Shown here: one piece after another, positions 12,890 through 52,185 of the stretch
Numbering within the stretch: position 1 is the first letter of the stretch
How the letters are laid out: each line of letters starts with the position of its first letter
NCBI GenBank assembly: GCA_030062745.1
Contig: CP099841.1
Span: 29,329,398 to 29,393,397, forward strand
Length of the DNA stretch: 64,000 nt
Reading direction: 5' to 3'
Origin: Capitulum mitella
Lineage: Eukaryota > Arthropoda > Thecostraca > Pollicipedomorpha > Pollicipedidae
Notes under the pieces: model-generated
What the model saw: the letters and a program-made list of their open reading frames with translations, nothing else
What the model was told of the DNA's origin: nothing
Database searches by the model: none
Made by a program: the position numbers and the translations under genes

Positions 12890-13455
12890 GGGCTTGTTAG
12901 GCCACCCGCTTGAGATCTCGAGAACTACCCGTGCGATTTCATGGCAACAAATGACAATCGATTTGCCATGACGAAAACTACATTTTTTTATAAAAAGGAG
13001 TTTTCATAATCTTGAAAGAGATAGATAAAGGAGAGGAAGGCGAAAAAGACAAAAATTGGGTCATGTTGGCTTGTTATAAGTTCGCTCCCAACTGACCGAT
13101 TTTGATGAAATTGGCATGTATCAAAGGCTAATTGACGGGAATTTTCCAATTGGCACAAAAGTTGCGAATTTCGCGAATCTTCATGCGCTTCCACAGGGCT
13201 TGGGGAAATGGGTTAGAATGATTTCTTCCACTAAATAAAACCTAGAATATTTTTTGGCTTCTTGTGGTCACGTTATGCTTACGAAGTTCAAATCCCATCA
13301 CATTTTAGGTATATTGTTGGCATAGGTGGCGCCAGGGACATGAAAAAAGTAACTGTCGAATGGTTGGATATCCGTAAGATCAACTTTGAACTTTGACCTT
13401 AAATGACCCCTAATGACCTCAGAGTCACATGGAATGGGCATGGGTTCCGAAAGGC
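12890..13455 (-). mobile_element. Inverted, truncated relic of the same element family (copy D)
   Basis: The reverse complement matches copy A from its right-hand ctcgagatctc motif inward to the aaggtcatttaaggtca motif. The inner end ataggtggcgccagggacatga is seen at 13,323-13,344. It lies 285 bp beyond copy A in the opposite orientation and is much more diverged. Confidence 0.7.
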
Positions 13456-13469
13456 GCAACCCTTACTTA

Positions 13470-13960
13470 TCCCTTCGCCATTTTCCCTGTTCCCCTTATA
13501 TCCTGGTCTTGCCATTTAGCTTCTCCAATTAACATCTTGTCCGTTTAACTTTTATCCTTTAATTTTTAGTACTTTTCGTTATTTGTTGTTTGGCTTCCTG
13601 CTCATTTGACTCTTATCTCCTTGATTTTTCTGATCAAACTTTTGCCACTTGACTTTTGTTCTTTCGACGTTCTGTTCACTTACTTTTATTTCTTTGACTT
13701 TTTCCATTTGACTTTTTCCCTTGGCATTTTGCGCGTTTGATTTTTTTCTTTTATTTCTTGTCATCTGACGTTTTGGCTTTTTTGATTTTTCTTTTTGGCC
13801 ATTTCATTTTTTGTCGTTTTGACTTTTTGTCCGTTTGACTGTTATATCTTTGACTTTTTGTTTTTTTGAAGTTCGTTTGACTTTTTTCCGTCTGATTTGT
13901 TATTCGTTTCACTTTTTTGTCGTTTGACTTTTTGCCAAGTGACTTTTTGTCCGTTCACCT
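13470..13960 (-). repeat. Degenerate short-period repeat, GACTTTTT type
   Basis: About 30 imperfect units built on tttgactttttg / tccgtttgac. It is the complement of the AAAAGTC repeat at 8,268-8,580. Confidence 0.75.
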
Positions 13961-13969
13961 GGGAGACCA

Positions 13970-16100
13970 TACGGGGAATTGCCGCCCGAACAGTGCTGTG
14001 AACTCCGGAGCATTCTAGGTCTCCGTCATTACGATCCGTGAAGCCAGCCCAAACCGGAAGGTAACAAAACCTTTGTGCATGAGAGATAGCATGTCAGAAT
14101 TTCACCAACAGATAAGCAGGGATCATCAAAATCCTTTAAGAAGATTGCAAGCCAACCCCAAATCCTTAGAACCAAAAGGAATGCGATCCAGTCCCAAAAT
14201 TTTGCAATCCTTTCTTCGAAAAGTCAATTATTGCTGAAACAACCACAGCAGTATGCACCCAGGTGTGTATTGTTTGTGATGGGATTTGAACGTCAGCCAT
14301 CGTTCCACAAACTTTGGCCCTTTTATAAATCTCTACTTGGTGAGGAGGCATTAAGCAACAAACATTAGGAAGGGCATTCCCAGATCCGTTTTCCTTCATA
14401 AGTAGGCGGTTTGTTTGGGTTCAGGAAAAACATGATCTCGTTTTTAATGCAGTTCCTTACGCTGTGGCCAACTATTACCATCGTTGAATACATGAGATCC
14501 GAAGCAGGATGCAGGGGCACAAGAGAGATGCCCATTCCCCCCGCCTTTGATGAGGGGGACAGTCCCCCCAACTTTTCTGGTGATGCGTGCCAGCACGGCC
14601 AGCTCCGAGAGAAATCGCTAGCCAAATGTTGACTGACCTCGCTGGCTGTGGTCCGTGGCGTAGCCAGGATTCGGTTTAGGAGGGAAACAATTCAAATTTT
14701 GCTCCCCGTCCTCAGCCAGCCTGAAATTGTGAAAATGTCACAAATTTGTTCCGCTTTATTTTCACAGGTCTGAAAGAAATCTGCCAAATTATAATAAATG
14801 ACATTTTGCGTACTGTTCCTGTGGTGCTACATTGACGGCCGCACGCGACAAGACGACTGAACGGAAGAATTCTTGCTAGTCTTACGAGCAGACCAGGTTC
14901 GATCCTCGATCGTGACATTGGACTTTGTTACCACTTCTGTCTGCTTTCTTGCTTCCACCCTTTTCCTCCCTTTCAACGGCAGGCTGACCTTTGGCCTGGA
15001 AGGATGCCCCCGAACTGACCTCAGTAGAGGGTCGGCAAGCGCCGAACAGTCGGCCACCCAACTCACTGTCTCACGCGTCCGATCAGGGCTTGTCTCTAAC
15101 GAGCAGGGGACAAGAAATTCTACCCACTATCACGACCACAATTACTGCGCACGCTCAGATCGACAGCAAGTCAATTTGACCTCAAAACTGAGTCGTTGGG
15201 TCCTTCGCATGTGTAAAGCCACGTAAGTGACGACCTACATTAAAGTAATTAGCCAATAAACGGCAGTGAGCAAGGATTGCAACAAAGTCGCAGAAAAAGC
15301 GCAATCCAATCCGCAATTCAATCGTCTTTTGAAGATTTCATTCAACCTGCAACCCTTAAAAAAAATTAATCCGGGATTGTAAAGCCTGCAATCTAAATCC
15401 TGATGACTGGTGCGTAAAAGTGATATTTGGTGGGTGTCATTTAGCACATAAAAATGCGAATTTCGGAATGTCGTATTCAAGGATCATTTTTGGCACTGGC
15501 AGCACAGTAAAGACCGACAATGACATATGACCTTTCATTTAGTTGACCTTGGCCTCGAGAGAAAAATTATCACTGGCTGCAGCGACAGACCATGTTAAAA
15601 CCAGCTCGCAGCAAAAGCATTGTTTGCCGCCTGGAACCACTGAGATGACAGCGGACATGGCAACGATGAGGCAGGTTCCTTGTAACCTGGGAGATCACTG
15701 GATGACCTTGGAATCTAGAATGTAGGAAGAGCTGGAAATCGAACAAGGTATCATCTGAAAAGAAAAAAACCTGCTACATTCCCGGCTTTGTTTCGCCGCT
15801 TTTTTCTCGCCTAGGAAAGAACTGGATGGAGGGTGGTAATCAGTTACCTGCCTCCTAGGCCGGGAGCGAAGGTGCAAAACCTTGCGGCTGGCGATGGTCA
15901 GCCCTTCACACAGCCTAATTTGTTGCTAATTTTATATATATATTTACATATATATACTACGTAAACTATATATACTCTATATATAACAATAGTAATAAAA
16001 TGCCCCTGCATTTTTCAAGCCCAATATGAATGGTAATTGCTGAAAACACTCGCCGTGGTCTGTCGTCCGACTTCATCTGCTTGCATCATGATTGAAAGAC
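13970..16100. other. Non-coding stretch, no gene recognised
   Basis: At 14,652-14,670 a gtggcgtagccaggatt motif looks like a hAT-type terminal repeat without a clear partner. An open plus frame at 14,873-15,226 has no recognisable domain. TA-rich tracts lie at 15,933-15,985. Confidence 0.45.
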
Positions 16101-29737: not shown

Positions 29738-32318
29738 TCACTTGCCGAGTTTCTCGAGCTTCTTCCGTTGTTGCCTCTGTTTTATCGACAGGAGAAAGGC
29801 GTCTAGAAAGCTGAGGGGCTTCTGGACTGGCTTCGTCGTCGTGGTTACGACAACGGGTGGCGTTGTTGCCGAAGTTGCAGCCGCGGTTGTAGTCGACGTC
29901 GTCGAAATAGATGGAGGGGGTACCGAGGTCGTGAAGTGGGTGGTGGGATCAGTGTGTACAGACGTGGCGGGAACTGTTGGAGGAGGTACAGACGTTGGTA
30001 TCTCCGACGCTTCTTCCGGGTCTTCCGATGCTGGAGACGCTGATGCTTCCTTTCCCGCTGCTGGAAGTTCTGTGATGCTGATCTCTGCCTCGGGCCGCGC
30101 TCTGGTAGGTAACTCTGCTGCGGTGGTCACAGCACCAGCCGCAGGTTTTTCTGTGGACGACGGAACGTCTCCAGGTTTTTCTGAAGAGCTGCCTGGCGGT
30201 TCCGCTGTGACTTGGCGCTGGTCCTTGAGCTTAGTAAATGACAGCTTTAAGTCCTGAAATTGTTGAGACAGGCCCACCAGTTCCTTTTGCATGCGGGACA
30301 AGACTGCAGTCCAGTTTTTAGAACCATTTATGATCGCCCCGTTAACTTGATGAATGGACAATTTAAGCTCACCGACTGTGGCCTCAAGCGTGCCGTTTTC
30401 ACCCAATGTTTCATTGAATCCCGTTTTTAGGTCTTTTACAGATGCAGAGAGCTGAGTTCTGGCCGTTTTTCAGGTTCTCCATATCCGTCTGCATTTTCTT
30501 CAAGAAGCCATGAAGCAAGTTCTGCTTGTCCGCCTGACCGTCCAGAGCAGCCTTCAGAGTGTCGAGGACAGAATTCGATCTATTCTGTCCGTTCTCCAGG
30601 TTCTTCATCTTTGCATGAAGCTCGTCGAAAATACCATTGAGCGTGTTTTGCCCGACCTCCACTTTATTCAAGAGCTCCTGCATGACCTCCATGGAATCAT
30701 TAAGTGAGTCCTGTCCGTCTCCTAAAGGTCGTCAGATTGTTTCTCCAGTCTCTCAAAATAGCTGTTCGTGGAGTTCCGTATCACATCAAAATCTGACAAC
30801 CTCCCATGCACAGCACTTAAGGAGTTTTCCAGTATGCTTTTGTCCACTCGCCAGAATCATCAGCGTTTGTTGTGCCCCTCGGAAAGAGCTGTTTAGAGCA
30901 TTTTGTCCATCCAACAAACTCTTCAGAGTTTCTTGCGTACCGCTGATGGAGCTGTTCATAGTACTTCGTTCATTTTCACAACTCTGCAGGGTCTGCCGCA
31001 TCCCGCTGAGGGAGCTATTTACAGCGTTTTGTCCATCTAACAAATTTCTCAGGATCTGTTGAGACGTGCTTGAGGTCTTGTTCAGAGTATTTTGTCCGCT
31101 TACCAAAGACTTCAGCGCGCCTTGCACACCGCTGATGGAACTGCTTACTGCGCTCTGTCCGTTTTCCAATGTATTCAGCACCGCTTGTAACTTGTGAACA
31201 GACTGTTTCAGTGAGTCCTGGCTGTTCGTGATGGTAATGAGTTGGGACATGGACTCGTTTCTGGCATCAAGCAGGGTCTGTTTATTGTCGATCAGAGACG
31301 CGCCTACTTCAGTTAAGCGCCCATTTGCTGTCTCCATCTGGCCACTGATGGTGTCCAAACCGAGACCCAGATCTTGGCGGACGGCGCCGACTTCCTTCAG
31401 ACTCTCTTCACACGCCGCGCACACAGACTTCGGCTCTGAAACGTTGTGAAGAGCGTCTAGCATCACTCCGTGCGTTACCGCGTTGTCCAGCACTTGCTGT
31501 GTTGTAGAGGATATAAAGTCCAGTTTCTCGTGCTGATCCCGAAGTAAATCATCATTTTCCTTCAACCTTGACATAATCTGTTCGGTCGCCACTCCTTGTG
31601 TCAAAGTGTGATTGAGCAAGTGCGTCTTCAGGTCATCTACATGCGTCCTTGTTTCGTTGAAAACCTTTTGCAGCTGAGCAGCGTTCTTCGGCACAGACTG
31701 ATCAAGTTTTTTCGTCGTGGCAACGTTGAGCGTTACGAGCCGCTGTATGGAGTCCATCTTCTCCTGGAGTCGGTGGCCTTCGTCAACAGAAGCGTTGTGC
31801 AGCCGGGAAATGTCATCACGGACCCGCAGCAGCTGGTCGCCGTTCTTAAAGACGGCACTGGCCAGCTGAGCGGGCGGCAGTAGCGCTCTGAATGCCACCA
31901 GAGCTCGGCTCTGTCTGCGCACCGTACTGGCCAGCTGCTGCAGCTGGGTGCTGCTGCTGCGCAGGCTGCCGTCGGCCAGCTGTCGGCAGGCCCGGCTGTC
32001 CTCGGCCAGCCGGGCCAGCAGCGCCTCCGGCCGACGGTCGGCGACCGCCCGCTCCAGCGTCGCCAGGTGGGCCGTCATGGCGTCCAGACGGCGTCCAGTG
32101 TGCCGGTGGTGCAGCGCCACGGCCGTCTCCAGACGAGCCAGCCGGGCAGCCAGCTCGGCCGGCGGCCGGCGCTGCTGCTCCAGCTGCACCAGCAGCCGCC
32201 GCAGCTGCGTCGTCAGAACCGCCAGCTCGGCGCCGCCGCCAGCTCCTCCCCAGACAGCGGCCGAGAGCTGCAGCAGTGCCAGCAGCTGCAGCGTCCGCAG
32301 CAGACTCCAGCCGGCCAT
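29738..32318 (-). CDS. Secreted coiled-coil glycoprotein with Thr/Pro-rich tail; three apparent frameshifts
   Basis: A single long exon begins at ATG 32,318, where a hydrophobic signal peptide (LLRTLQLLALLQLSAAVWG) fits secretion. Residues 30-130 are Leu/Arg/Ala-rich coiled coil. Later comes a CAAC pair and many heptads, then about seven tandem 21-residue repeats (pattern LLDGQNALNSS-x-x-G-x-Q-x-x-L-x-x), most with an N-x-S/T glycosylation site. More GQN-type coiled coil follows, then a Ser/Thr/Pro/Glu-rich mucin-like stalk (TTTTKP, STTSTTT) and a short basic end (IKQRQQRKKLEKLGK) before the stop at 29,738. The frame shifts by one base near 30,839, 30,725 and 30,456, yet the pattern resumes cleanly each time, so assembly indels or a recent pseudogene are both possible. 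Full length would be about 860 residues. No named family is recognised. A structural matrix, mucus or adhesive role is inference only. Confidence 0.7.
30775..31215 (-). repeat. 63-bp coding repeats (21-residue, three-heptad unit)
   Basis: Diverged tandem units, each giving GQN-x-L/V-N-x-S/T followed by heptad-type Leu and Gln. Seven units can be followed by eye within the coiled-coil gene. Confidence 0.75.
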
Positions 32319-32374
32319 GTCGGAGACCCCGCGCTGGCTGACGTAAGTCTTTGACTCTGCACTTGGCGCCTAGT

Positions 32375-35853: not shown

Positions 35854-36232
35854 CAGTAGTGTAACCAGGAGGTTCTTAGGAGTCTTAGGAACAACCCCCC
35901 TAAATTTTTTTGGCGTACAAATGGCCCACCCCTGGCACTGGCCTAAAGGGGCTTTCCTAGTCGGGAAAAGGCAAACCCATTCCTCCGCAAAGGGCCCTCA
36001 AACAGAGACCTTGCGCAGCGCGGACCAGATGTGAATGAATATGAATACACATGAAATTCCCGTATGTCTTAGTGCTGTCGGGCATCCTCATTCTTAATGG
36101 CATTGAAACATGAGTACCAAGTACTCCAAGTGTTCTAGCCATGGAGGCTGTCGTAATGTTTAAGGGTTCCTTTCAGTGTTGGGACCCATCCTCTAGACCC
36201 CTCCCTCGAAAAAAATCCCGGTTATGCCACTG
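35854..36232. mobile_element. Possible 380-bp hAT-like MITE
   Basis: The left end cagtagtgtaaccagga and the right end tcccggttatgccactg are imperfect inverted repeats. No convincing target duplication is seen, so the ends are eroded or the call is wrong. Confidence 0.45.
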
Positions 36233-36239
36233 GCGATGG

Positions 36240-37870
36240 TGGCGATCCTTTGGGCCCCTTAAGCCTGAAAGGGACACCTCTCTCACTTCGAAAGGGGCCC
36301 CGTAAGAGCTTCACAGGGTCTCTGTGAAAACCTGACGGGTTCTTGAAGCAGCAAGAGGGCTTCCGGGAGAACTAGATGACCCCTGAGACGAATAAAAGAG
36401 TCCCCCGGGCTGAAACACCTGAAAAGCCCCTGAGAACGCAACAGGACTTCAGTACGGCAAAATACCTCTGAGGCCGCCAGAAGGATCATAGGCCCCTGAG
36501 ACTGCAAAGATGATGACCAAGTCTCTGAGACGGCACAGCAGCCCGTGGAATACCATAAGGGCCCAAATGGGCTTCCCGGGCATGCGTGAAAAGCTGAAGT
36601 TTCTTGATGCAGTCGGAGGGCTTCCGGGAGGGTTAATAAGACCCTGAGACGGCAAGATGGCCTCAGAGATGACTAGAAGGGCCCCTGAAATTCTCCAAGG
36701 CCCACGAGATCACAAGAGGGACCCAAACATGGCAAAGGGACCATGAGACCCCCAAAAGTGCCGGAGGGCCCTTGAGATGGCAACACCTTTAGAGGGTGAC
36801 TAGCACGGCATAAGAAACCCCTGGGTAGCCAGAGGAGGCCTCTGAACGGAGGTTCATTGGTGCATGTCTCAGTCTCAAGAGGGGTCCCAAATGGGCTACA
36901 CTGGTCTTTTTGAAAACTTGAGGTGTTCTTGCTGCAGCCAAGGGGCCCCGGCAATATGAGGTGGGTCCTGAGACGGCAAAATGGGCCTCTACACGGCAGA
37001 AGGCCCCTGAGACCACCAAAAAGGCCAGAGGGGCCTCTTGGGGTAGCAGACGACAAGAGGGTCTCAAGGAAACGGCATGGGGGTCCTGGACGACCAGAGA
37101 GCCCCCAAGTACGTAAAGCGGCTCCTGGCACGAAAAAAGTTTCCCTGAGACTGACTGCGGCCCCTAAAAGCGCCAACAAAGGCCCCTGTTATGGCTAGAG
37201 GGGCCCAAAGACTGCCAGATATACCCCATATAAGCAGGGGAAGACCCCCTGAGACAGTCATGGGGACCACCGGAGACGTTCAGAGGACCATGGCATTGCA
37301 CAGGGGTACTGAGAGTGCTCAAAGATATTTTGTAATTGCCAGAGAACCCTTGAGACGGTAAAGATGTTCCCCATAGATGACAAGAGGGGCACCTCAGACA
37401 ACAAAGGGTCCATTGAGACTATTAGAGTGGGGCATTTGAGACTGGTAACTAGCAGTCTCTAGCAATACGGGCCCCTCAGACGACCAGAGGAACCCTGAAA
37501 CTACTAAACCCTTAGGCGTCCAGACAGCTTCCGGAAGGGCCGAAGAACCTAAAGAATTGCCAGAGGCGCCTCTGTCACGGCAGAAACAGACTTACAGAGC
37601 GCCCTTGTTTCCGCCTGAGGGGGTCCTTAGACGGCAAAAATGTTTTAAAGACGACAGGAGGAACTCCGAGATGGCCAAAGCGTCCGTGACACTGCCAAAT
37701 GGGTCCCTGAATCTGTGCGAGGTTCCCTGGAAACTGACAACAGGGCGCCTGAGACGTTCCGACGGACACGCGAAACTGCAAAAGGAACCTGAGAACACTG
37801 TTTGGCCCTGACATGGCAGACGGCCCGAGACCACCAAGAGTGCCCGGTAAATGCCGGAGGGAGCCTAACC
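36240..37870 (-). repeat. Large GC-rich minisatellite array, about 1.6 kb
   Basis: Dozens of degenerate units of about 20-28 bp on the consensus gggcccctgagacggcaaga. It is the inverse orientation of the 33.6 and 35.2 kb blocks. Several open frames of up to about 170 codons on the minus strand arise from the repeat and have no domain. Confidence 0.75.
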
Positions 37871-38379
37871 TAGCCTGAGCTTGAAAAAAACGTTTCGAGA
37901 AACTACGAGGGAGCAGAGGGACTCCTGGACGGTCCGTGGCCAAATATTTAAACACTGTCAGATGCGGAAACGAGATTTCAGATAGAGGGAGAGAGGCAGC
38001 CGCCTTAAATTCCGCCGTTTTTATCATATTTCGGCCAATTTGTACCGCAACAAAACGCAAAAGATTCTCAAATAACGTGACGCGCTTAAATTTTTGGGTT
38101 GCTTTATATCGTAACAAACGCAAAATTAGGTATTTCAAATATTTCCCCCTCCTGAGTGGATCGATGTTTTTCACATCTGAAGATGAAAAAATGGATGGGG
38201 GCATGAAGGGGCCTACGCTGACCTGTCCCCCCTGGCGACATTCCATATCTGCCCCCGATCTGATGAAGCATACTGTGATTTTTCAAATGGTGGTACCCTA
38301 AGCAAATTCAAACTACAGAAATATTCCCTCGTCCACTTAAGAAAATCATAACCTGAAAGTTCGAAGGCTCTTCAGAAAC

Positions 38380-38637: not shown

Positions 38638-38759
38638 AACTAGGAACGTAAAATAAGAACTCATGCACCAGCTCACCCAAAGGGTGGCCCGGCCTCCCCC
38701 CCTAGGCCGGCATTTTTGGCGAAAACTATTGTACGTCGTCTTCCCAGGAGGCGGTTTCC

Positions 38760-38765
<6 letters not shown>
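38638..38765 (+). repeat. Inverted-repeat arm a
   Basis: Runs from taggaacgtaaaataagaac to ccaggaggcggtttccgta and pairs with 39,191-39,318. The middle, with its gcgaaaac and cgtcgtcttccca words, matches the internal part of the MITE at 1,359-1,528. Confidence 0.85.
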
Positions 38766-38815
<50 letters not shown>

Positions 38816-38849
38816 TATACATATATATATATATATATATATATTGTTT

Positions 38850-38913
<64 letters not shown>
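38764..38913. repeat. (TA)n tracts
   Basis: Three TA runs separated by two identical ttgtttatac spacers. Confidence 0.95.
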
Positions 38914-38915
<2 letters not shown>

Positions 38916-38920
38916 CATTG

Positions 38921-39119
38921 GGGTTGCACTTATGACACTCCTTGACAGGCGTGTCGTTTTGTGCAGATGATTGAATGATTGGAGGGTGGGCGTGTTTATG
39001 GGGCCCTCTCGTGTTTCCGAGGAGACCAACACCACCCGGGGGTCCTAATTCCTTTCCCCTCAAAAGTGGGCTGCTCATCGGACCTTGTTTTAGTGATGTG
39101 TTGTTTGATCGAGTGCCGA
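38921..39119 (+). repeat. Inverted-repeat arm b
   Basis: Includes cgacag/cgtgtcgttttgtg and gggccctctcgtgtttccga. Its inverted partner is 39,431-39,635. A partial third copy lies at 57,001-57,050. Confidence 0.85.
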
Positions 39120-39147
39120 TATATATATATATATATATATATATATG

Positions 39148-39192
<45 letters not shown>
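39119..39192. repeat. (TA)n tract
   Basis: About 36 TA units with one interruption. Confidence 0.95.
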
Positions 39193-39193
<1 letters not shown>

Positions 39194-39312
39194 GGAAACC
39201 GCCTCCTGGGAAGACGACGTACAATAGTTTTCGCCAAAATGCGGGCCTAAGGGGGAGGCCGGCCACCAGCCCCTTCGGGTGCGCTGGTGCATGAGTTCTT
39301 ATTTTACGTTCC

Positions 39313-39318
<6 letters not shown>
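39191..39318 (-). repeat. Inverted-repeat arm a'
   Basis: Reverse complement of arm a; matches along nearly all of 128 bp, with a few indels in the C-run and near the cttcgggtgcg loop. Confidence 0.85.
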
Positions 39319-39379
<61 letters not shown>

Positions 39380-39382
39380 CGC
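39318..39382. repeat. (TA)n followed by (TG)n
   Basis: About 20 TA units then about 11 TG units. Confidence 0.9.
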
Positions 39383-39430
39383 GTATTTATGTATGTATAT
39401 ATCTATAATTTTGGGGAGAAATGGAAACTG

Positions 39431-39635
39431 CACTCGGCCGAAGTGCCGTTGATCAAACAAGACATTGCTAAAACAATGTCCGTTGAGCAACCCACTTTTG
39501 AGGGGAAAGGAATTAGGACCCCCTAGTGGTGTTGGTCCCCTCGGAAACACGAGAGGGCCCCACAAACACGCCCGCCCCTCCAATCATTTACACAAAACGA
39601 CACGCCTGTCAAGGAATGTCATAAGTGCAACTCCA
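39431..39635 (-). repeat. Inverted-repeat arm b'
   Basis: Reverse complement of arm b, ending at ggaatgtcataagtgcaac. Confidence 0.85.
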
Positions 39636-40290
39636 AAGAAAACCAAAAAGGTGCGCTGCTATTAAGTAGGTAGCTTTAAAGTAGATAACCTACCGCCCGT
39701 GGGCGACAACAGCCAAGTCTTAAACGTAGGCCAAAGGTCCTGACGTTCGGGAGCATTACGAAATGAGCGCAATGAATCCTTGGAAACTTGCTGTTTACGT
39801 CTGGAGCAAGGCTCTTTATATATCGCTGGCGTGTTTTAGCTGACTGGTTTGTCTTTCCCGCATGACTGGACATTTCCGGGAATTATTGTGGGGCTCACAA
39901 AGGATTTCACACCGTTTTCTTGCAGTCATGGCCATGAGTCGAATGTAAAAATCCCTAAATACTGGGGTCCGGACCCCCAACCCCCGGGATCGCCAGTCAT
40001 GCTCCTCCGTCTTTCCCGTATTGACAGTGACGTCATAACAGGCCTTCTCGAAGGCCACGCACGTCTGGTTGACGAGAAAAACACAGCGTAGGGGGGCAAT
40101 CCTTTAGAAGCGAACGCCATAAACCAAGCACACTGGATGACACATATACGGCGCGCGCGTTGGCAAAAGGAGACGTCAGCTGTTGCGAGAAACAACAACA
40201 TTATGTTTCACTGGAATGGCTCCAGGTCCCAGATCAGCCATACGTATTCGCTCTTGTTTTAGGGCACAGGCCCTAGGATTAGGTTTACAG

Positions 40291-40404
40291 GAAGAACCTG
40301 TTGAAGGATTTCGAGTCAAGCTTGCAAACGATGACAACATGTTTTGTTGGGAAGTGGCCATATTTGGTCCTCCACACACACTCTATGAAGGAGGATATTT
40401 TAAG
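40291..40404 (+). CDS. UBE2R: UBE2R exon: EEPVEGF to GGYFK
   Basis: Acceptor aggtttacag|GAAGAA and donor TTTAAG|gtaggt; 38 codons, phase 0 at both ends. The same frame stays open back to an ATG at 40,216, but the residues upstream only weakly resemble the conserved N-terminus, so I place an acceptor here. A contiguous start at 40,216 is the alternative. Confidence 0.85.
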
Positions 40405-43400
40405 GTAGGTGACAATCACATTGGACATTTCACTGGTCATTTGCTGTCTGTCATGTATGTGCCTGTTATTGGATGGAGATGCATGTAAGGCATGTATGAT
40501 GACTGTCATACCAATTCTGTGATAATTTGAGGAGTAAGCCTGAGTTGCTGCATTGGGAAAAATAGTCAAGAACTAACTCTTGCTATACCAGCTCTGTAAA
40601 TGTTCCTGTATTGTTATTCCTATTGATTGTAAAGCTGATATCACACTTAAATCAAAATGAAAATGATGGATTTTGTCATGTGAATTCTGGTAATGTAAAA
40701 AGTGGTGCACAGGTGTCTCAGCAAGTATGCAGACATTTTAGATGTCCTTTAGTTGTTTGAGACCATCACATTTGTTGTTTTGCAAGATGGCAGTGGGGAT
40801 GTCTTGAAAAGGACCATGATGGAAACATCATGGAATCATTTTGTTATGTGAAATACTGGCTTTGAAACACTGGGTGTGGTTTCTGTCTGATTGTACATTA
40901 ACATGGTCCTGTCATACTGCATTTTATGTTTGGTGGTATTTGATGGGTATGGTATCAAGAATGTTCAGTAACTGGAATCCCATTTTTGCACTGCACATGT
41001 TTGTATGACATCAACTAGCATGTTTACTTGCAGCCTGTGGTCACGGGGTTTGCCAAACCAATTTACACACTACAGGGTGACAAGGAATGTGAGCAGTGTG
41101 TACTGCAGGCTGATCCAAACTTTTTGTGGGCATGTTTTTGGGATGCTGTGACACAGACCATAGTATTTGGGACTCCTGCATACATTCATGGGTGAACTGC
41201 CATTGCTGGATATGAGTGTTTATCCCATGGAAACTGCTAGAAAAACAGAGATTTTGTAGTCTCAAAAGGAGCAGGAAGTGATGTGCTGTATAATGTTGTA
41301 AAATTTTCTGCTCCCATTCCAAATGGCATGGCAGCAAATTTTCTGCTCCCCTTCCAAATGGCATGGCAGCTTGGTAACTGAAGCAAGTAAAATTAAAAGT
41401 CAAACAAAATATTAGATGGAAATAAGGAACATTCAAGCACTAATGATTTAGCTGTGGCACAAAAAAATGTTCTTGCACCTATAACCATTCTCATGCAATT
41501 GTATCATTTTTGAGAACTGAGTGGAGTGGGAACTGAATGGAGTTTTAGCCAATGCATTGCCTAGGCTGCATATTTAACATTTTCAATGGCTCTTGTCAAG
41601 GACATCTTTTTCACTATTTCTTTTGACTGGAAAAATTAATTTTTGACTTTGCTGTATGCCACCACTAACAGTTTTGCCTTTTGGGGGGGGGAATTACTAT
41701 AATTTTTCTGCATTTCCCCCATTCAGAACAGATGGAATATGTGGTTGGGTGCTGAAATGGAGCCAAAAAAATATGGCTAATAATTTCCATTCTTGTAGCC
41801 ATGGAGAATCCTATTTTAATACATTGAATTTCACTTAAAATCCATCCATAGGAGGGCCATTTCATCTCTTCTTCAGATATGCCTAAATCCTCTGCTACTG
41901 TAATGTATTGCTCTTCTTCTTGAAAATGGAGGCTGGCATCAGCCCCCTTGCTGTTTCATTCTGCTTCTTGGTTGGCCAGCTACCTCTGGGCACGTCACAA
42001 AGGTGCATCCAGGGCAGCATGTCAGGAAGGCCCCCAGTGGCTTATCATACATACTACACTGCCCCCTCTCATTTGGAAGTCACCACTCCCATTCCCTTTC
42101 CTGGTGCTCATTAACATCATTCATTATGTATTTCCTTGGGATCATCCATTGAAAAACACAGCTAAATTGATTGTGCTGAACCTGCCAGTGGAAGCAAATA
42201 TGAAGACCAGACCACAGCACTAATATCAAATGGTTTCAGTAGAACATAAAAGTTGAGTGGCAAAATGTAGGCTAAGGTATAAAAACTCATCACATTAAGA
42301 TACATTCTATGCTGTGATTTTTCACAAGATGCCTCCTAAGACTGCTTGTGAAACCCACCTGTGTGCATTTAATGATAGTTGCCAGGATGGTGTTGTACAG
42401 ACTATGGGGTCTGAAACTTAATTGGTGTCTGGGGCCTTTTGTTGCATGGAGGAGCATAAAGCTTCTTGTTCTATCATGGAGTTCAATTTGGTTGTCCTTG
42501 TATTACACTGTCCAGTTATTGAATGACTGGCTCCAGGGCATTGCTGTGATTCAGTGGGCCCAGCCATCACCTCTTGACAGATTTTCCTGAGATTGGCTGT
42601 CACTAGTTCTCTCATTCTTCAAAGTCAGCTTCTTAGTCTCAGGCATCATGGCTAAGAGTTGCAGCATGAGTTCTCACAGACACTTCATCTTTCCATGCAT
42701 CCTTTATCTGCTTGGCATCCTGTCTGCCCTCGTCTGGAAACGCACGTGCGGATGTCCCACTGGTTTGACCTGGTCAGGGTGGGAGGGAAATCGATGTGTA
42801 AAACTGTCCCCTCTTTTTATCCTATAGGTGTTCCCCGGCCTGTAGCTGATGATCATGAAGGGCCCATCCCAGCAAGCTTGAAGCATGTCTGGTATTCATA
42901 GATTTGTAAAAATTGTCATGAAAGCTTAGTCTTCATGGTATTAGGTGGCATCCCAAGCTTGTTTTCAGTTTGTTTTTGTTTTGTTTCGTTCAATTCTTTC
43001 ACATCTTTCTTTTCCTTTCTTTCTGACCACGTCCTTATGCACTTGTTTTGGAATATCCACCAGGTTGTTGGCTTAGCATCCCACAGGACACGTATGGCAG
43101 CTTTCCACACCAACTCTGGTTAATTTTGAGCTTTTGGTGCTGTTGCGTGGGAAGATAGCTGTGAAGTGGTTCTTGCCATACCGACTTTGAAAATGTTCCT
43201 ACATCGATACCCCTGATCCTTAGCCTACCTTTGTTCCATGGTATAAAGTCTGCCGAATCTTTATCCATCCTTGCGATCTCCGGAGTTCGTGGTTCGCGGC
43301 GTGTTGAAGAAAGGATGGAGAGCGCCCAGTTGTGCTGCAAGAACCTGACATGCACTGGAAACTGGCGTGGCTCAAGCACCACCCGTCGCCAGCGCGTTCC

Positions 43401-46400
43401 AGCGTAGCACGGACCCGATCGTCTGGCTCACCCGTTCTACGGCACGCTTCGACTGCGGATGAAAGACACGTGTCTTGCTTGTGCCCATTGATTGTGCCAA
43501 CGGCACCAGGTTCCGATACTCATACTGTAGTCCACGGTCGGTTAAGAGTGACTCCTGGAGACCATGACATGGTACACTACAGTCTCGAACACGCTATCCA
43601 GACGGCTGTTTATCATGCCGTGTCGTGAAGAGCAGCAAACTCATCTGTTGGCCTGTTGGTTCTGTTGGTCGCCGACGAAAGTGTCCCATCAGATCATCGG
43701 CGACATGCTGCCATCAGCTGTGGGCTCTGTCGGCATTTGCAGCGGCGCCAGCCGTCAACGCTGGAGGCCATTGGAGTGCCCGTACCGAAACGGCCGGTGC
43801 AGTGGTTTCGGACATCCTGCTCCGTCCCCCACTATACGTATCCTGCCTGTTTTAGCAGCGGGCATGTTCTGGTCGCTCCAAAATGTCCAAACTCGTCATG
43901 CGTCAGATGGATTTTTTTCATGAGTCGCTGGAAACAAAGACATATCTCTTATTAGCTCTGCGTAAAACAAAGCCGCTGTTCTGGTCTATCTCTGGTTAGA
44001 ATCCTCTCTGGCGCCGCTTGCTGCTGAGTCTTCGTTGACGTGCGCGCAGACAAATTTTCCATTTGCAGCGGATTTAGCATTCGGTAGTCTCTGGGCGTGT
44101 GGCAGCTTTTCATTTAGAAACACGTCGGCGTCGTTCGGCTGTGGCTGCGTCGCCGATTGTGCTGGAAAGACGAGAAGTACGAGGCAGCGGTTCAGCAGGA
44201 TTGTTCTCATTCCCGTAACGTGTGGAAAAAACGAATCTATCAATCTCCTCAGCCCACCTGGCATATCGTTCTTTGGAGTCTTTTGTGTTCCACACCCACC
44301 AGAGAACGCACTGATCAGTAAATCAATGAAAATCCCAGCAGGTACGACTGAAATTTTCAGAGTGCCGAAATGAAAGCAAATGCCTCTTTGTTTCCGATGT
44401 GCTACCGTCGTTCACGGTCCTGAAAGGCCGTGTGATCACTTCACTTCAGGTTTCAAGTGACACGGGGTTCGCCGAGGTCTTGTCGCCACCGGGGAGCTCG
44501 CATTGTCTATCTTAAAGCCTGCGCAGTGGGTGCGACTGAGCTTTGCGTCCGCATTTTCAAAAAAAAACATGCTGGTACCTATCTAGAAGCTTCCTGAACG
44601 CTCAGCAAACGGTTTCTCCCATGTTAGCACCGAACAGATGAACTTCGATCGAACCCCATCGTGTCGAGAATCTTGTCTCTTCTGTGGCCACTTTGATATC
44701 CTCGATCGTCCCGATGACTGAATGGATGCGGTGTCACCGGTTCTGGATTTTCAGCAAGATGGTAATCGGTCGTCAACGCCCGACCTAGCAAGGCTTGAGG
44801 TCGGCGGGATACCGTATCGCGTCGTTTGGTGACAGTCCGGATCGAACACCTCATCTCGAGTGGCAGCACCGGAATCCACGGCCTGTGCGTGCACCGCACG
44901 CTCTGAGAACGGGTCCGGCGTGCAGTCGGATGACAGTCGCATACCAGCGGGCTGTTCTGGTGTCCCGCCATTTTTGGCCTCTAAAGGCGCATGGTAACCA
45001 ACGAGATGCAGCACTCGTTCGCTGCAGTCCTGAAAAGTAGCTAAAAAAAAACTGGAGAACATCGTAGACCAGGTTAGCTGGAGGCGATAAGCCGACCGCA
45101 ACGGGTATCTGCACGCTGTCTGCTGATGCGGATCCGGTCCGCGTCAGGATGTCCGCCGAAACATTTCCGACTTGCCTCAAGGCCGGATGGTTGGTGGCGA
45201 TCGGCCGAACGCCAGCCAGGACCAGAAGTAATGGCTTTACTCCGAGAAGCAGACAGTATGCAGCAAAAATACGCAAGTGTGTAAACACAACCTACGAAGG
45301 TGAACGATATAAAAAATGCGGGGGGACATAGCTTCGGTACTGTCGACAGTGACCAAGTAGCCAAGTACTGAGGAGGTTGAAAGTGGTCCAGGCTTAATCA
45401 GCACAGCCCAAACAGTACAACTTGCTTTTTTTCTCTATATTCTAATAGAGATAGTACATCTGTCTGATTCTATGTGACGCAGAAACAAGAAAGGGAAATA
45501 GTTTGGGAACTTCATTTTTGAACAGAAAAAGAGATTGCATGCTGGAAGGCTTGAGGTGTGATTCATGGTGTTATTATGTTGTCTGAGAGGATAACGGAAT
45601 TTCAAGGATAAGATGTCTTGTTTCTCTGCTCATAACGGGAAGCTTTCAGACTAATGTTACATTCAGTTTCGCGTAATATAATCCTTGATACATCTTTGTG
45701 CATTAGTGGACCCCAGTCATGTGGAAATGGATTCCAGCATTACCATTATTTCCAGATTCACAGTCGTAGATAATGGTGAATGCTGCGGCACACGTTTCAG
45801 AATATGGGATTTGTGGAATGCGGTCTTTCGTGCAAAGCACTTAAATCGGATAGTCACGGGGAATGCTGATTTCTGTATACGGACTCCGTATTGTAGGTGG
45901 TAATTTCGTTAAAATGGTTCTGCAGATATTTTTATTCTTTGTTGTCACCTGATTGAAACGTCTGAAGCGGATGTCGAGTGTTCTGTTCCATAGCCTTGAC
46001 ATAATTTGATTGAACCTCGCTGGACGGGAGGGATTTTCACTCGCACCGACGACGAGATGGTTGGTAGGCACCCCTCTCGCCCTTTGGCCCCTCATTGAGC
46101 TAGCGCCTGGGGGCAAAAAGCAATCAGTAGCTGCGTGCCCAAGGAATCCAGCAGTACCCGGGTCGACTCCGCATCGCCAACCAGTGACTTCCCAGGTCAG
46201 GTCAAACTTTATGCTTAGGAACTCTAAATCGATTTTACGGCGTAAGAAACGAGGCATGTGGAGCCAAATATGCCTAACGTCGTCTCGTCTATGATATTCG
46301 GTGCTAAAAATTATTATCTTGAGCATTCTGATGTCATAAAAGGTCGGCTTGGGTCATTGAACTCGTCTGGCCGTGAAAAGATCATTGACCTATCTGAAGT

Positions 46401-49308
46401 GACATTTATGCGTACGTTTTGCCCTGAAACAGTGGAAAACCGACATCGACGTAAAAATCGCTGTGCAATCCTTCAGTAATAACGTGATAGCTCGATGACC
46501 CGAGATGACCTGGTGTCACTCTTGTTCAAAACATGTACAATGAATGTGTCGTCAGCTATGCCAAATTTCACGGCGCTGTCGTGCGATGTTTTGTCTTGGT
46601 CTTGGAAAAGACTGCTTGGAGAGGTGACATCCATCCCCTCGTCCGAGGAGGATTAACATACCATAGTGATTTTCCTTTCTCATGAGACCTATGAAATAAA
46701 GTATCCGGCAACTGGCGTTCATCCGACCACAATCACTGTAATGAGAATACCAAATTAATGGCAGAATGTAGTGTTACACTGAAATTACACACGGGCATGC
46801 AGGGAACAAACTGACTAAAATAAGGAAGTGTTCGATTGATCTTCAGTGCGCCAAATTACGCCAGTGATGTTTTGCCCGAATTTCGAGCCGTTTGACGGCA
46901 ATGACGCAGAAAACCGAGTCGTCAGACTGGCGACGCGAAATGCGTTATTCGTGAAAATGATGGCAGTATGGACTTGTTATTTGTGTGTTAATAACAGACT
47001 ATACATCCGACAAACTGAGGGAGATGTTGCGACGTCCGATGGCATGATAGTAGAAAGAGTCGACAGGTGTCAGAATGCGACACATGGTTTTCGACAGTGG
47101 TCTCTGTGTTTCAGGCCCACTTGAACTTCCCGCCAGATTATCCATACTCACCCCCGACTGTTAAGTTTCTCAGCAAAGTGTGGCATCCAAATGTTTATGA
47201 GGTGAGTAATCCTTGTTTTGCACCTTCCTGTGCATTTTTCTCGATACGCCTTTGCCAGTGTGGGCCAAAAAAAAAATTTGTCGACTCAGTATCAAATGTC
47301 CGATCACGCCCTGTATTTTTGGTGTGTGCGCTGGTGTGTCATAACTGACGTGACCTCAGAAAATCGACATGTGCAGGAATGTCAGTGGAATGATCTGACC
47401 TCAGAACGGTGACCTGTGCATCAGCATCCTGCATCCTCCGACGGACGACCCGCAGAGCGGTGAGCTGCCCTGCGAACGCTGGAATCCCACACAGAACGTC
47501 AGGTACGTCAGTGACAGGTGACAGATGGTATGTGCATGCTGCAGCACATGTTGGAACAGGTGTGACAGACGTGCCAGATGTCATTTTCGTGTCGGAGGAA
47601 GAAGCTAGAACCATGATTGGTGTTTGAAGTGTGTCATCGTGCCGGAATCTGTTGTACGAAGGTATTGCATGAAGTATGTACAGAATTGTGGGTTAAGAGT
47701 TGTTTGACACGTGTGTTATATAAAGTGCGTTGTTTTCAGTTTATTTTTTCATGTAAATCACTTAAAAATCGCATGAAGGTGGGAACGAGAATGTGCTTTT
47801 TATACGATTTATGTATATAGCATGGCGTGCTGGCGTTTTAAACGAATCAAGTCGAATTTGGCGTAGGATGTCCGAATTCGCCCTGTGATGAGACATTGAT
47901 ATTCCAAAGTTCTTGAAACTGACTGTTTGTAGGCCCTGTTTTTACGTTTGTGACGAGTCATTTCCGGGACGATTTTAGGCGCCCTGGTTTGGCTTCGTGT
48001 GCTCGTTTAATATGCAGTTCGTGACATTTGGGAATGTCTCACCGTTAGTTACAAATCGTATATGCGCAGAGTGAATCGTCGATAGCCGCCAGTTTGCTCT
48101 GATGTCATGATAGAAGACTGCGTGCCGGATCGTGTTAAATGTGGTTGTCGAAGCTGCTTTTGTGTCATTTTTGTGCTCGCACTGCCCAGTTTGCAGTGCT
48201 GCTGTGTGGTCACTGTGTCCGGATGGAGCGGTGCTGCTGTGTGGTCGCTGTGTCCGGATGGAGCGGTGCTGCTGTGTGGTCGCTGTGTCCGGATGGAGCG
48301 GTGCTGCTGTGTGGTCGCTGTGTCCGGATGGAGCGGTGCTGCTGTGTGGTCGCTGTGTCCGGATGGAGCGGTGCTGCTGTGTGGTCGCTGTGTCCGGATG
48401 GAGCGGTTGGTCGCTGTGTCCGGATGGAGCGGTGCTGCTGTGTGGTCGCTGTGTCCGGATGGAGCGGTGCTGCTGTGTGGTCGCTGTGTCCGGATGGAGC
48501 GGTGCTGCTGTATTGTCGCTGTGTCCGGGTGGAGCGGTGCTGCGGTGCGGCCACTGTGTCGTGGCCGGAGCGATGCTGTGATGCGGCCACCGTATCCGGA
48601 TGGAGCGATGCTGTGGTGTGACCACTGTGTCGAGCTGGAGCGGTACAACGGCGCGGCCGTTTTCAGGACGATCCTGCTGTCGGTGATATCGCTGCTGAAC
48701 GAGCCCAACACGTACAGTCCGGCCAACGTGGACGCCTCGGTCATGTACCGGCGGTGGAAGGAGTCCCGCGGCAAGGACAAGGAGTACGAGAACATCATCA
48801 GGTGAGAGCGCCTGTGTGACTTCGGCCATTGTATCGTGTTGTATTGTACTGCTACTGTTGTATCGTGTTGTACTGTACTGAACGGTATACATCAGAACAG
48901 TGGCACATTTCTCTGTATCAAAACATCACCAAAAATCCGTTTTAGCGGCTCCGTGGGGAGGTAGCGTGCTGACATCTTGGTATCGCCTCTGTCAATACAA
49001 TCCTCTCTGCAGGGGAAGGTCAGTCACGTGATTGAGTCTTTTGCATCCGGTAGAAAACGATCCTGCGAGGCCGATGGACCGGGCCTGCACTGGTCATGGG
49101 TGTGGGTGTCCGGTTTGATTTGCAGGGTTGATGGCACGCGTTATGTGACGTGGGTGAGGATTAGTTTCCATCTTTCACAGTTTTATTCAGTCCTGTTGAT
49201 ACACGTGCCAAATGTTTTCGTTGCTGTATTGATTTTTTTGACGTTTTACGACCCAAATCAACCTCATTTTTACTAAAGCAATGGTAAATTGCCGGAAATT
49301 AGATCCCC

Positions 49309-49350
<42 letters not shown>

Positions 49351-52185
49351 ATATGTATATATACGTACGACGCTGGAAAGGAAGTACGTTCGCGAAAGGT
49401 TCGAATCATGACGTGGGGCCGTTCCTTGTACAAGAGGGAAATTACTTCTCAAACCATTGCCTTATTTTGGAAAAGGCATTGTCACTGCCACCATAGGGGG
49501 ACAGGAGGCTTCCCATCAACTCGTTCATAAGTGGGAGATGGGTAGAAAAAAATAAGATGGCAGTCCGTCCTGTGTCTAGCAATTTAAGTGTTTGTAAAGG
49601 TCAGACTCGCGTCCTCCGAGCCGATGCGCACCGCGCCTTTGCGTTATCAGGTTGGGGGTGTTCGATGAGACGAAAGGGGCGTGAATAAAGATAAAGACAT
49701 TCCTCTTGTTGCTGATGGACTCAGCACTTAACACGGATTGACACCCGAACATCAGGTGGAAGTGGTGCCGGGACACCCCCATTGGAAAGATATCATTAGT
49801 ATGGTGGTGGCGCCGGAGTCCACGAGCAGCTTGGGATGCCTCTGCTTTCTGTAGCATCTCAAGACAAGTCTTACAGTCTTAAGGTTGTCTCAAGAACATG
49901 TCAGACGTTTGGCGTGGCTCGGGAAGAAAAGGGCGGTTTTTATCCAAGAATATGCATTCGTACAACTTCGTCCAAACGATGTTGTTAGATGTTAAATGCC
50001 AGTATCTTCCGCAGTAACAAGCTGTTTTATTTCACCATTTGTCAACTCGAGAAGTTAAGGGGTTGGTGAGACATGTCAGTGTGCGATATATGGTTGGCTC
50101 CATTTAAATTATTGATATGGAAAACTCGCGTCCTGGCATTCCTCCGTGTCCTGACATTTGATTCAGGTTGCCATATTCTACGTGAAGTTTGCAGAATAGA
50201 CCGACGTGATATGACATTTTATGACCTGCATTTCAGTGCTCTAGTTCTCCGTCTTCCAGGTCAGATAAGCTAGTACGTCCCTTGTCGGCCAGTTTGGGTG
50301 TCGGGTTCCGGGACCGTAATCTCGATGACTGTCGAGAAGGACGAATCCTAATTATTGAAATGGCATTGGGAAAAGAAGATTGGAGAAGACCTAAGGTTAT
50401 GAGGAGATCAGATTGGTCATGCTCACATGGGTTCCTCATACGATCTTCCATGTTATTTGCTTGCCCACAGTGTCCTGGCTCAAAGTCAGTTCAGAAGGAT
50501 GGGCATTAGTCTGTAACGCTTTCCATAGTTCATAATTTACAAAAGTCAATAGAAAATCATGGTTCAGCATGCATATGCATCATTTTAGCAGTGACTGGCA
50601 TGATTGCTTACCATTCGCCTCCTGCGATATCTGGCTTGAGAGGGGACGCGGTGTCAGACGTGCACTCCTTTTCTCTGCTTCCTAACGCCTTGACCAAATG
50701 GCGCAGCGTCGTCAATTTTTCTGCACCCTTCGGCTGATCATTTCTACTCATTTTTCTTAAAACAAAAAAACTGATATCTTCCAAGGTCATGTCGGAATGA
50801 CAGGTGTTTCATGGAATTGCTGTTTTTCGACTGTGTTTGGTCTTTATCGATGTACTGATCGTGCAAGATGGGTGATTGTGCGCTTGATATTTTGTAATGT
50901 TGGTAGGAAACTGTTGATCGTTAGTTTGGCATTTCCATTCGTTGGTGAGGTACAAATGATTGATCACTTGACGTCAGTTTTCCGCGTGCGTCTGTATCTA
51001 TGTAAGACTAAGTGTTGTTGAATTCGTGTAGATCCTTTCATTGGTGCGGACGTGATTGGGCATTATTTTACATGATGCAGGTGACTGAACTTTAGTGTTA
51101 TGCACTAAACTGCGATTATTTATGGTACATTCTTCACCTGGCTTAGCTTGGCATGACATAGAGTAGTAATTAGTTCGCCTCGCTTGGTCTCTCGAAGTGA
51201 TTTCCATTGTCAGACTACGTTAATGTGGTATGTTCATATTTCGGGGGGGGGGGCGGCCGGGGACCCATGGCCCCACTTTTTGGGAAATTCAACATAAGCC
51301 CTATGGGGAAAGGGGTCTCTGCCCCCCCCCCCAATTTTTTGCATGCTCCTACACTCTGAATGTGCTTAGCTGAAGTCGATGACGTGTTAATCATGATGTA
51401 AGATCAGACCTTAGGGACGCCATCTGATCCTAAATGGCTGTTCGTACCACGGATTTATCACGCCTGACATACATCAGTGATAGTAATACAAAAGTAACCA
51501 TTCCAGCACACGTATCTTTATGGGCGTTCATATTTCGGCGTAAAGCAATTTTGTTTCCTCCTGGCCGTTTACCGCACCTGGCATAATCTGAAGCCTTCAG
51601 TAGTATTTGACTGAGACATGTTTCCGAACGCTTTCGAAGTGATCGTGACCAAGGAAAGTTTCGCAGATTCGTCTGATTTCCTTCCTGAAATTGATGTTGA
51701 TACGGGATGTTAAGGTATGTACCGTTACTAACGTGATTCCGTCATGCTCTCAGAGGTCAGCTAGAATAAAAAGCATGGGTTTAGCGACATGATTCCACCA
51801 TGCTCGCAAACATCAGGTAGTAAAATAGCACGGGTTGAGCACGGGTCGGCTGTTTCCCGGCAGGAAACAGGTGTCGTCATCGCGCGTGGAGGCCGAGCGG
51901 GACAGTGTGATCGTGCCGCTCACGCTAGAGGACTACTGCATCAAGACGAAGGCCCGGCCGGACTCCGAGCAGCTGGACATCGCCGACTTCTACGACGACG
52001 ACTACCTGGACGACGACGAGGACGAGTCGTCGGACGGAGGTGCGGCCAGCCGCCGGTCGTCGCAGAGCCAGCAGCGGCCGCCGGCCGAGCGGCGGGCCGA
52101 GCCCGGGCCGAGCACGGCCGGCGAGCAGGAGCGGGCCGCGTCCGCGCCGGACGCCGTCCTCCGGCCGACCACGTCCTCGTCCTGA
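40291..52185 (+). CDS. UBE2R: Ubiquitin-conjugating enzyme E2 R (CDC34 family), five visible exons
   Basis: Exons 40,291-40,404, 47,115-47,201, 47,405-47,502, 48,667-48,801 and 51,864-52,185 join in frame with GT/AG ends to give 251 residues. They cover nearly the whole UBC fold. Visible are the GFRVKL strand, [13 protein letters not shown], the HPN motif, the active-site Cys (NGDLC, codon 47,417-47,419), the family-specific acidic loop ([13 protein letters not shown]), and YRRWKES. The acidic tail ([14 protein letters not shown]) docks on cullin in CDC34, and here it is followed by a Ser/Arg/Pro-rich extension. The enzyme takes ubiquitin from E1 and builds Lys48 chains with SCF ligases in nucleus and cytoplasm. 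The roughly 20-residue start exon was not found upstream. Human UBE2R1 is 236 residues, so the total of about 270 is slightly long. Constitutive expression is expected. The gene is convergent with EIF2S3. Confidence 0.95.
40335..42729 (+). other. CpG-depleted segment at the start of UBE2R's first visible intron
   Basis: Across about 2.4 kb only two CG dinucleotides are seen (41,044 and 41,993), while TG and CA are abundant. The sequence before 40,330 and after 42,730 is rich in CG. This is the footprint expected of long germline CpG methylation. No gene is recognised inside. It contains a tandem 35-bp duplication at about 41,302-41,371. Confidence 0.85.
41302..41371 (+). repeat. Two-copy 35-bp tandem duplication
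   Basis: aaattttctgctcccattcc followed by aaatggcatggcagc is repeated at once with one clear change. Confidence 0.85.
42640..45300 (-). mobile_element. Broken Ty3/gypsy LTR retrotransposon fossil
   Basis: Minus-strand pieces appear in the order expected of a gypsy pol region. The end of the RNase H region lies near 44,280-44,180, the integrase zinc-binding (HHCC) region near 43,920-43,800, and the integrase C-terminal GPY/F module near 42,890-42,740. Sequence up to about 45,300 shares its CpG-rich character, but its parts (RT, protease, gag) are not resolved. No LTRs were delimited. It is broken many times and looks moderately old. It lies inside UBE2R's large intron in antisense orientation to the gene. 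Confidence 0.7.
45360..47114 (+). other. Remainder of UBE2R's large intron
   Basis: No gene recognised. 46,085-46,185 has a weak tRNA-like pair of boxes (tagcgcctggg and gggtcgactcc), which could be a tRNA-derived SINE remnant. Confidence 0.45.
47115..47201 (+). CDS. UBE2R: UBE2R exon: [14 protein letters not shown] to WHPNVYE
   Basis: Acceptor tgtgtttcag|GCCCAC, donor TATGAG|gtgagt, 29 codons, phase 0. It carries the HPN motif that supports the oxyanion hole. Confidence 0.97.
47405..47502 (+). CDS. UBE2R: UBE2R exon with the catalytic cysteine
   Basis: Acceptor ctgacctcag|AACGGT, donor AACGTCAG|gtacgt. It encodes [12 protein letters not shown], the acidic loop, and the start of [10 protein letters not shown]. 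The active-site Cys codon is 47,417-47,419. The intron before it is only 203 bp. Confidence 0.97.
48196..48642 (+). repeat. 35-bp minisatellite, about 13 copies
   Basis: The unit starts gtgctgctgtgtggtcgctg and ends tgtccggatggagcg. Copies 1-6 and 8-9 are nearly identical, copy 7 is 9 bp short, and copies 10-13 decay toward the exon. Because 35 is not a multiple of three, all three plus frames stay open across it, giving a spurious Cys/Val/Trp-rich reading. It lies in a UBE2R intron and ends 24 bp before the next exon. Confidence 0.95.
48667..48801 (+). CDS. UBE2R: UBE2R exon: [14 protein letters not shown] to EYENIIR
   Basis: Acceptor ccgttttcag|GACGAT, donor ATCATCAG|gtgaga. It encodes the conserved helix and the [18 protein letters not shown] block that is diagnostic of the CDC34/UBE2R group. 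Confidence 0.97.
49311..49350. repeat. (TA)n microsatellite
   Basis: About 20 TA units within the UBE2R intron. Confidence 0.95.
51243..51342. mobile_element. Possible 100-bp G-run MITE
   Basis: Begins with an 11-base G run plus cggccggggacccatg, and ends aggggtctctg followed by a C run of about 10. The two ends are roughly complementary. It resembles the GC-run ends of other small elements in the window. Confidence 0.45.
51864..52185 (+). CDS. UBE2R: UBE2R last coding exon with acidic tail
   Basis: Acceptor tttcccggcag|GAAACAG and stop TGA at 52,183-52,185. It encodes [20 protein letters not shown] (conserved) and the Asp/Glu tail, then about 50 Ser/Arg/Gln/Pro-rich residues. It is much more GC-rich than the other exons. 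The extension is unusual against vertebrate UBE2R. Confidence 0.9.

Follow-up and report, generated by a model that had tools for sequence, protein, structure and literature searches.

What could have removed nearly every CpG from some 2.4 kb in the body of a ubiquitin-conjugating enzyme gene, when the DNA on either side still carries this dinucleotide? The question is raised by a 64-kb stretch of the genome of the barnacle Capitulum mitella (C3:29329398-29393397, in an assembly of 477 Mb and 16 contigs), which we refer to as the window and whose coordinates are used here unless another contig or locus is named. A first-pass annotation of this DNA had reported two CG pairs in about 2,400 bases, had ascribed their scarcity to germline methylation followed by C-to-T decay, and had considered a block of this kind, with sharp edges and a stop before the later exons, to be unusual.

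The CpG desert in UBE2R

An exact count agrees with the first-pass figure: positions 40335-42729 (2395 bp, forward strand) contain two CpG, at 41044 and 41993, and the CpG observed/expected ratio (O/E) of this desert is 0.020 compared with 0.94 for the whole 64-kb window. Under a binomial model, a count this low or lower has a probability of about 1e-47 at the window's frequency of G after C and of 3e-45 at the desert's own G content, and chance is excluded as the source. Ranked by length, the CpG-free gaps of the window begin with three that fall within the desert (949, 738, and 715 bp), and the fourth longest measures 215 bp. For the segmentation of the window we used a two-state Viterbi procedure in which the low-CpG state was varied from strict to lax under three switching probabilities. 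The strictest low state returned 40335-42729, laxer ones returned 40335-43140 or 40335-43253 at each of the three switching probabilities, and the laxest tried returned 40193-43253, while the same approach gave no low-CpG segment in five simulated 64-kb Markov sequences. GC content is 0.41 in the desert, lower than the 0.48 of the window, and GpC stands at an O/E of 1.14. The first-pass annotation had named normal TpG and CpA levels as an observation that would speak against its explanation, and both are raised (O/E of 1.55 and 1.62, respectively). Set against the rest of the window, the desert shows a balance of -133 CpG, +88 TpG, and +35 CpA, which is a rough figure because the two compositions differ. 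Vertebrate genomes have a CpG O/E near 0.2, and if this value holds, the depletion in 40335-42729 is deeper than the vertebrate level.

The desert lies in the body of UBE2R, a CDC34-like ubiquitin-conjugating enzyme gene that is conserved and presumably in broad use. A genome search for the UBC fold placed UBE2R exons at 40285-40407 and 47103-47207. The first recognisable exon (40285-40404, forward strand) has clear homology to a paralogue elsewhere in the genome (LQEEPVEGF...GGYFK) and ends at a gtaggt donor, and its CpG at 40312 and 40329 are the last two before the desert. As the first-pass annotation had described, the desert starts inside this exon, taking up its last 70 bp, and runs into the following intron. 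About 2.3 of its 2.4 kb are intron and hold the two CpG, and introns are therefore not spared. The next exons, also on the forward strand, are at 47109-47201 (31 residues, in CpG-normal DNA), 47408-47500 (31 residues), and 48665-48802 (46 residues), with a further exon stretch at 51865-51939 (25 residues). All of them stand outside the depletion, as had been claimed, in 1-kb bins with a CpG O/E of 0.97-1.05.

Some additional features of the window were recorded. Two tandem 35-bp copies (97% alike) lie inside the desert at 41301-41370, and a 35-bp tandem array occupies 48137-48595, just upstream of a UBE2R exon. A repeat of about 650 bp is present in the UBE2R intron at 46006-46661 (1020 first-look candidates, of which 40 were scored, the matches listed showing 67-81% identity). 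When ten ORFs of the window were scanned against Pfam, none could be given a gene name; one Laminin_II match fell below the cut-off, and the 527-codon open frame to which it belongs (30786-32369, minus strand), located in CpG-normal DNA, is of no recognised family.

The two edges of the desert

The first-pass annotation had called both edges sharp, which is accurate for the left edge only. This edge falls about 50 bp inside the exon and within 50 bp of a structural junction, with two CpG in those 50 bp. Next to the exon lies one arm of a high-copy palindromic MITE-like repeat (40094-40285, forward strand). This arm keeps 11 CpG, and the CpG-normal left flank of the desert is thus repeat DNA. 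A search with this arm gave 551 first-look candidates, 40 of which were scored; 39 of the 79 listed matches (the window itself excluded) end exactly at 40285, and none extends beyond it among the matches listed. Clear homology to the paralogue's exon begins at this same position. The tblastn match of the window exon extends back to 40252, with weak similarity upstream of 40285. For the segment 40252-40285, the score against the repeat arm was reached by none of 3000 shuffles, whereas against the paralogue the protein score was reached by 78 of 2913 random window peptides and the DNA score by 184 of 3000 shuffles. The repeat explains this segment better than the paralogue does, yet the tblastn match starts at 40252, and we therefore place the junction near 40285 rather than at an exact base.

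Half of a repetitive element is joined to the UBE2R exon at this point, and the N-terminal coding part present in the paralogue is missing or replaced in the window copy. We found no convincing match to an N-terminal UBE2R exon upstream within the window, and a genome tblastn with the paralogue's whole first exon returned two weak places in addition to the paralogue and the window copy. An ATG is located 25 codons before EEPVEGF (24 in the paralogue), in an open frame (40216-40404) that leads from the repeat arm into the exon. The window copy of UBE2R may have acquired a repeat-derived start, or it may be losing function. As this case shows, an abrupt change in CpG density can coincide with a rearrangement junction and does not have to reflect a chromatin boundary.

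A whole copy of the MITE-like element was identified at L028:134-499, where its loop is a telomere-like CCTAA array and GAACATG flanks it on both sides. This copy lies inside another desert (no CpG in the preceding 133 bp, one in the following 920 bp) and has kept its own CpG (18 in the arms). That it has done so despite a divergence of 6% between its arms counts against the methylation reading and implies that the copy is either young or at present unmethylated. Two other observations come from the DNA that precedes the UBE2R junction. Inverted repeats in a nested arrangement, with AT microsatellites, occupy 38714-39641, and at 36001-38000 the CpG O/E is 0.47-0.59 at a GC content of 0.53-0.54, with TpG at 1.2-1.3 but CpA at 0.86-0.95. 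This second region is unlike the desert, and methylation does not explain it.

On the 3' side, the depletion fades over about 500 bp. The fading zone (42730-43253, forward strand) has 12 CpG in 42730-43250, for an O/E of 0.46 with TpG at 1.24 and CpA at 1.33, and four CpG at 42731-42749 make the right limit imprecise, which we count against the methylation reading. A repeat insertion was considered for this side too and is unsupported, as the sole repeat matches in 42730-47100 are those at 46006-46661; the search skips very common words, and the lack of a match at the right edge is thus not proof.

Origin of the depletion

The desert contains an old transposon fragment (42102-42472, forward strand) that can be compared with its relatives. 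Eight other places in the genome match it with 65-85% identity and keep their CpG, whereas this copy has none. Seven of the eight, those with loci, were aligned and counted; the fetched stretches of these relatives have a CpG O/E of 0.77-1.08, and two of them (L006 and L008) have a desert at one end. At sites where at least two of the seven relatives have CG, the fragment kept 0 of 15, with TG at seven sites, CA at three, and another dinucleotide at five (10 of 15 TG or CA). When CG in a single relative sufficed for a site to be counted, none of the 33 sites was kept and 20 are TG or CA. The other 15 dinucleotides of the fragment were kept at 44-87%. The desert, as read from these alignments, reflects the decay of CpG and not its original absence.

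The loss of CpG with a gain of TpG and CpA, the decay of the transposon fragment, and the recurrence of deserts and the presence of DNMT genes described below together support methylation as the explanation. We consider it very probable that the desert records, as a mutational footprint, CpG methylation that has long been present in the germline over the 5' part of UBE2R, and the cause proposed in the first-pass annotation is in this respect well supported by the TpG and CpA gain, the fragment, the DNMT genes, and the paralogue. We infer both methylation as the cause and its action in the germline. With DNMT3 and DNMT1 as the putative agents, methylation would be maintained in germ cells over a domain of roughly 1-3 kb lying just within the gene, exon and intron alike, and methylated C would deaminate to T, so that CpG would turn into TpG or CpA until almost none remained. 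The promoter side would be unaffected, and the later exons would be little affected or not at all. The left edge of the desert now stands beside a structural junction, where half of a MITE-like repeat meets the first recognisable coding exon, either at its boundary or inside it, and the right edge would be the fading end of the methylated domain.

Other origins have to be weighed against this one. The first-pass annotation had itself pointed to an insert from a CpG-poor source. Such an insert could be foreign DNA or a mobile element poor in CpG, and both the abrupt left edge and the lower GC content would suit it. We looked for an insert and found none: the block holds part of a host exon and an old, decayed copy of a host repeat family whose relatives bear CpG, it matches as a whole only itself in the genome, and in the paralogue, too, this exon is covered by a desert even though nothing in the paralogue's intron resembles the block at E 1e-6 (a match of 77 bp at the exon is the only one). 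An insert is thus highly improbable, and we reject it. A GC content below that of the window could also point to local base composition, or to selection against CpG without methylation, as the force at work. This is very unlikely, given that TpG and CpA are raised with GpC still at 1.14, that the fragment has lost all of its CG with other dinucleotides retained, and that NCG codons nearly vanish in the exon stretches of deserts and not outside them (see below).

It is also conceivable that the footprint is purely historical, such that the DNA was methylated for a long time and methylation has since lapsed, with CpG returning through new insertions and mutations. The MITE-like element in the L028 desert, with its CpG intact despite the divergence of its arms, fits a lapse of this kind, as does the half element in the window with its 11 CpG beside the desert. 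A long lapse, however, should have yielded new CpG, and there are still only two in 2395 bp; DNMT1 and an exon of DNMT3 are also present in the genome. We therefore regard a lapsed footprint as unlikely, and favor methylation of long standing over the 5' part of the gene.

Deserts and methyltransferases across the genome

The paralogue mentioned above is a second UBE2R gene on C2 (minus strand), whose exons match PDB UBE2R2 at E 1.8e-34. A desert covers its homologous first coding exon (gene-oriented positions 13030-16076), with 15 CpG in 3047 bp and a CpG-free gap of 1733 bp. The next two exons are in partly depleted bins (O/E 0.38-0.51), so that the depletion has no clean end there, which we count against the methylation reading, and a third segment (17 CpG in 1367 bp) was called when one strand was segmented and was absent when the other was. 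UBE2R and OTUD7 are arranged head to head across 1.1-1.4 kb of CpG-normal DNA that precedes the first exon (C2:26326977-26328388, or L043:6977-8388), and this gap is flanked by two deserts. The second desert has 2 CpG in 2166 bp, or 8 in 2437 bp by the other segmentation, and holds the first recognised coding exon of the divergently transcribed OTUD7/Cezanne gene, which was identified by a UBA_8 match (E 2.6e-5) just below Pfam's cut-off. The later recognised exons of OTUD7 (PDB OTUD7B, E 2e-51) lie beyond the desert in CpG-normal to CpG-rich DNA. The gap is probably a shared bidirectional promoter with putative start sites for both genes and a footprint on each transcribed side. A recent repeat was considered as another origin for the gap, but L043:6977-8380 matched only itself in a search that skips very common words, and a promoter-like gap is preferred. 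In the window, a scan of both strands with five OTUD7 peptides found no copy of this gene.

Deserts are common elsewhere in this genome, and the block is ordinary for it, contrary to the first-pass view. We drew 60 random 10-kb regions from 14 contigs (C6 and C9 were left out), and of the 13 that were fetched, four contain a desert or part of one (5645 of 130000 bp). Among UBE2-family loci, 18 of 30 have a desert, compared with 5 of 39 random 3.2-kb tiles; the Fisher value of 7e-5 for this comparison is a guide only, as neighbouring tiles are not independent. These 30 loci are the best 30 of 54 matches, and the window gene and the C2 paralogue are not among them. In gene direction, six of the deserts are over the matched exon, 12 are on its 5' side, and none is on its 3' side. 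When overlapping loci were merged by hand (four pairs: L018/L036, L026/L033, L023/L024, and L027/L038), 26 places were left, 16 of them with a desert (six over the exon, ten 5', and none 3'). A 5' bias within genes is thus found at the UBE2 loci, and the stop before the later exons, which had been taken as an oddity, is to be expected from a 5'-biased footprint. The remaining 12 of 30 loci have no desert within about 1.5 kb, which we count against this interpretation.

The composition of these deserts resembles that of the window's, with a CpG O/E of 0.084, TpG of 1.57, and CpA of 1.50 in their inner 70%. Across 29 of the 30 loci (L011 was left out, and the stretches of L025 and L026 hold in-frame stops), the six UBE2 exon stretches inside deserts have 9 CpG in 1038 bp and NCG at 2 of 86 NCN codons, compared with 488 CpG in 4917 bp and NCG at 205 of 409 NCN codons for the 23 stretches outside. 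As for the four random deserts, one is located 5' of a methionyl-tRNA formyltransferase-like gene, another 5' of a liprin-alpha gene, and a third has a RING-finger exon inside it, while the fourth (L044) could not be assigned to a gene. At the DNMT2 locus, a desert lies over and 5' of the first matched exon. The four loci that carry two exons of DNMT1, a late one of DNMT2, and that of DNMT3 (L039, L042, L040, and L058) have no desert, which likewise counts against the methylation reading.

The genome encodes DNMT1 (E 5.5e-50), DNMT2, and an ADD exon of DNMT3 (E 2.1e-9; PDB DNMT3A, E 5.2e-8). A maintenance methyltransferase and a de novo methyltransferase are therefore both represented, the latter by the ADD exon, which is the only part of DNMT3 found; a PF00145 search of the genome returned no DNMT3 catalytic exon, a point against the methylation reading. 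The absence of DNMT3 often accompanies weak CpG depletion (PMC8821070).

Several arthropod systems can be compared with this one. In Daphnia, the honeybee, and Nasonia, methylation of conserved, expressed genes peaks close to their start and declines toward the 3' end, and highly methylated sites are mainly in exons 2-4, with Daphnia introns near zero (PMC6097596). The footprint in the barnacle resembles the methylation of these species in its 5' bias, but it departs from the exon-centred type of Daphnia and Hymenoptera in that it spans exon and intron and the block is mostly intron. Gene-body methylation in arthropods has been reported to target conserved and housekeeping genes, and in the crustaceans P. 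hawaiensis and A. vulgare exons and introns differ little, with exon methylation below or only slightly above the genome background (PMC7343188). In contrast to what is described for these two species, the footprints here are very deep, and they are confined within sampled DNA whose O/E is otherwise close to 1. For the copepod Eurytemora carolleeae, CpG depletion was read as past gene-body methylation; it is general (mean gene O/E of 0.5, unimodal), and the account reports DNMT1 and DNMT2 and no DNMT3 (PMC11706791). Depletion in the barnacle is instead confined to short 5' domains, and the DNMT3 ADD exon is present.

Continuous domains across exon and intron are possibly a feature specific to this lineage. 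We tentatively propose that its germline methylation may take the form of an unbroken domain, about 1-3 kb long, which begins just within the transcribed side of the promoters of housekeeping genes and is not bound to exons, and that it may have been so strict and so lasting as to erase nearly all CpG, although we would give this proposal somewhat less than an even chance. If it is true, a gap of normal CpG density between two paired deserts would be the sign of a bidirectional promoter, and mobile elements newly arrived in deserts could be dated by the CpG they retain. Our search of literature listings found no methylome study of a barnacle, which makes this a candidate group for testing the placement and bounds of 5' methylation domains. 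In a genome that is otherwise near normal CpG density in our samples, the start regions of conserved genes are visible from sequence by a near-complete loss of CpG, in introns as well as exons.
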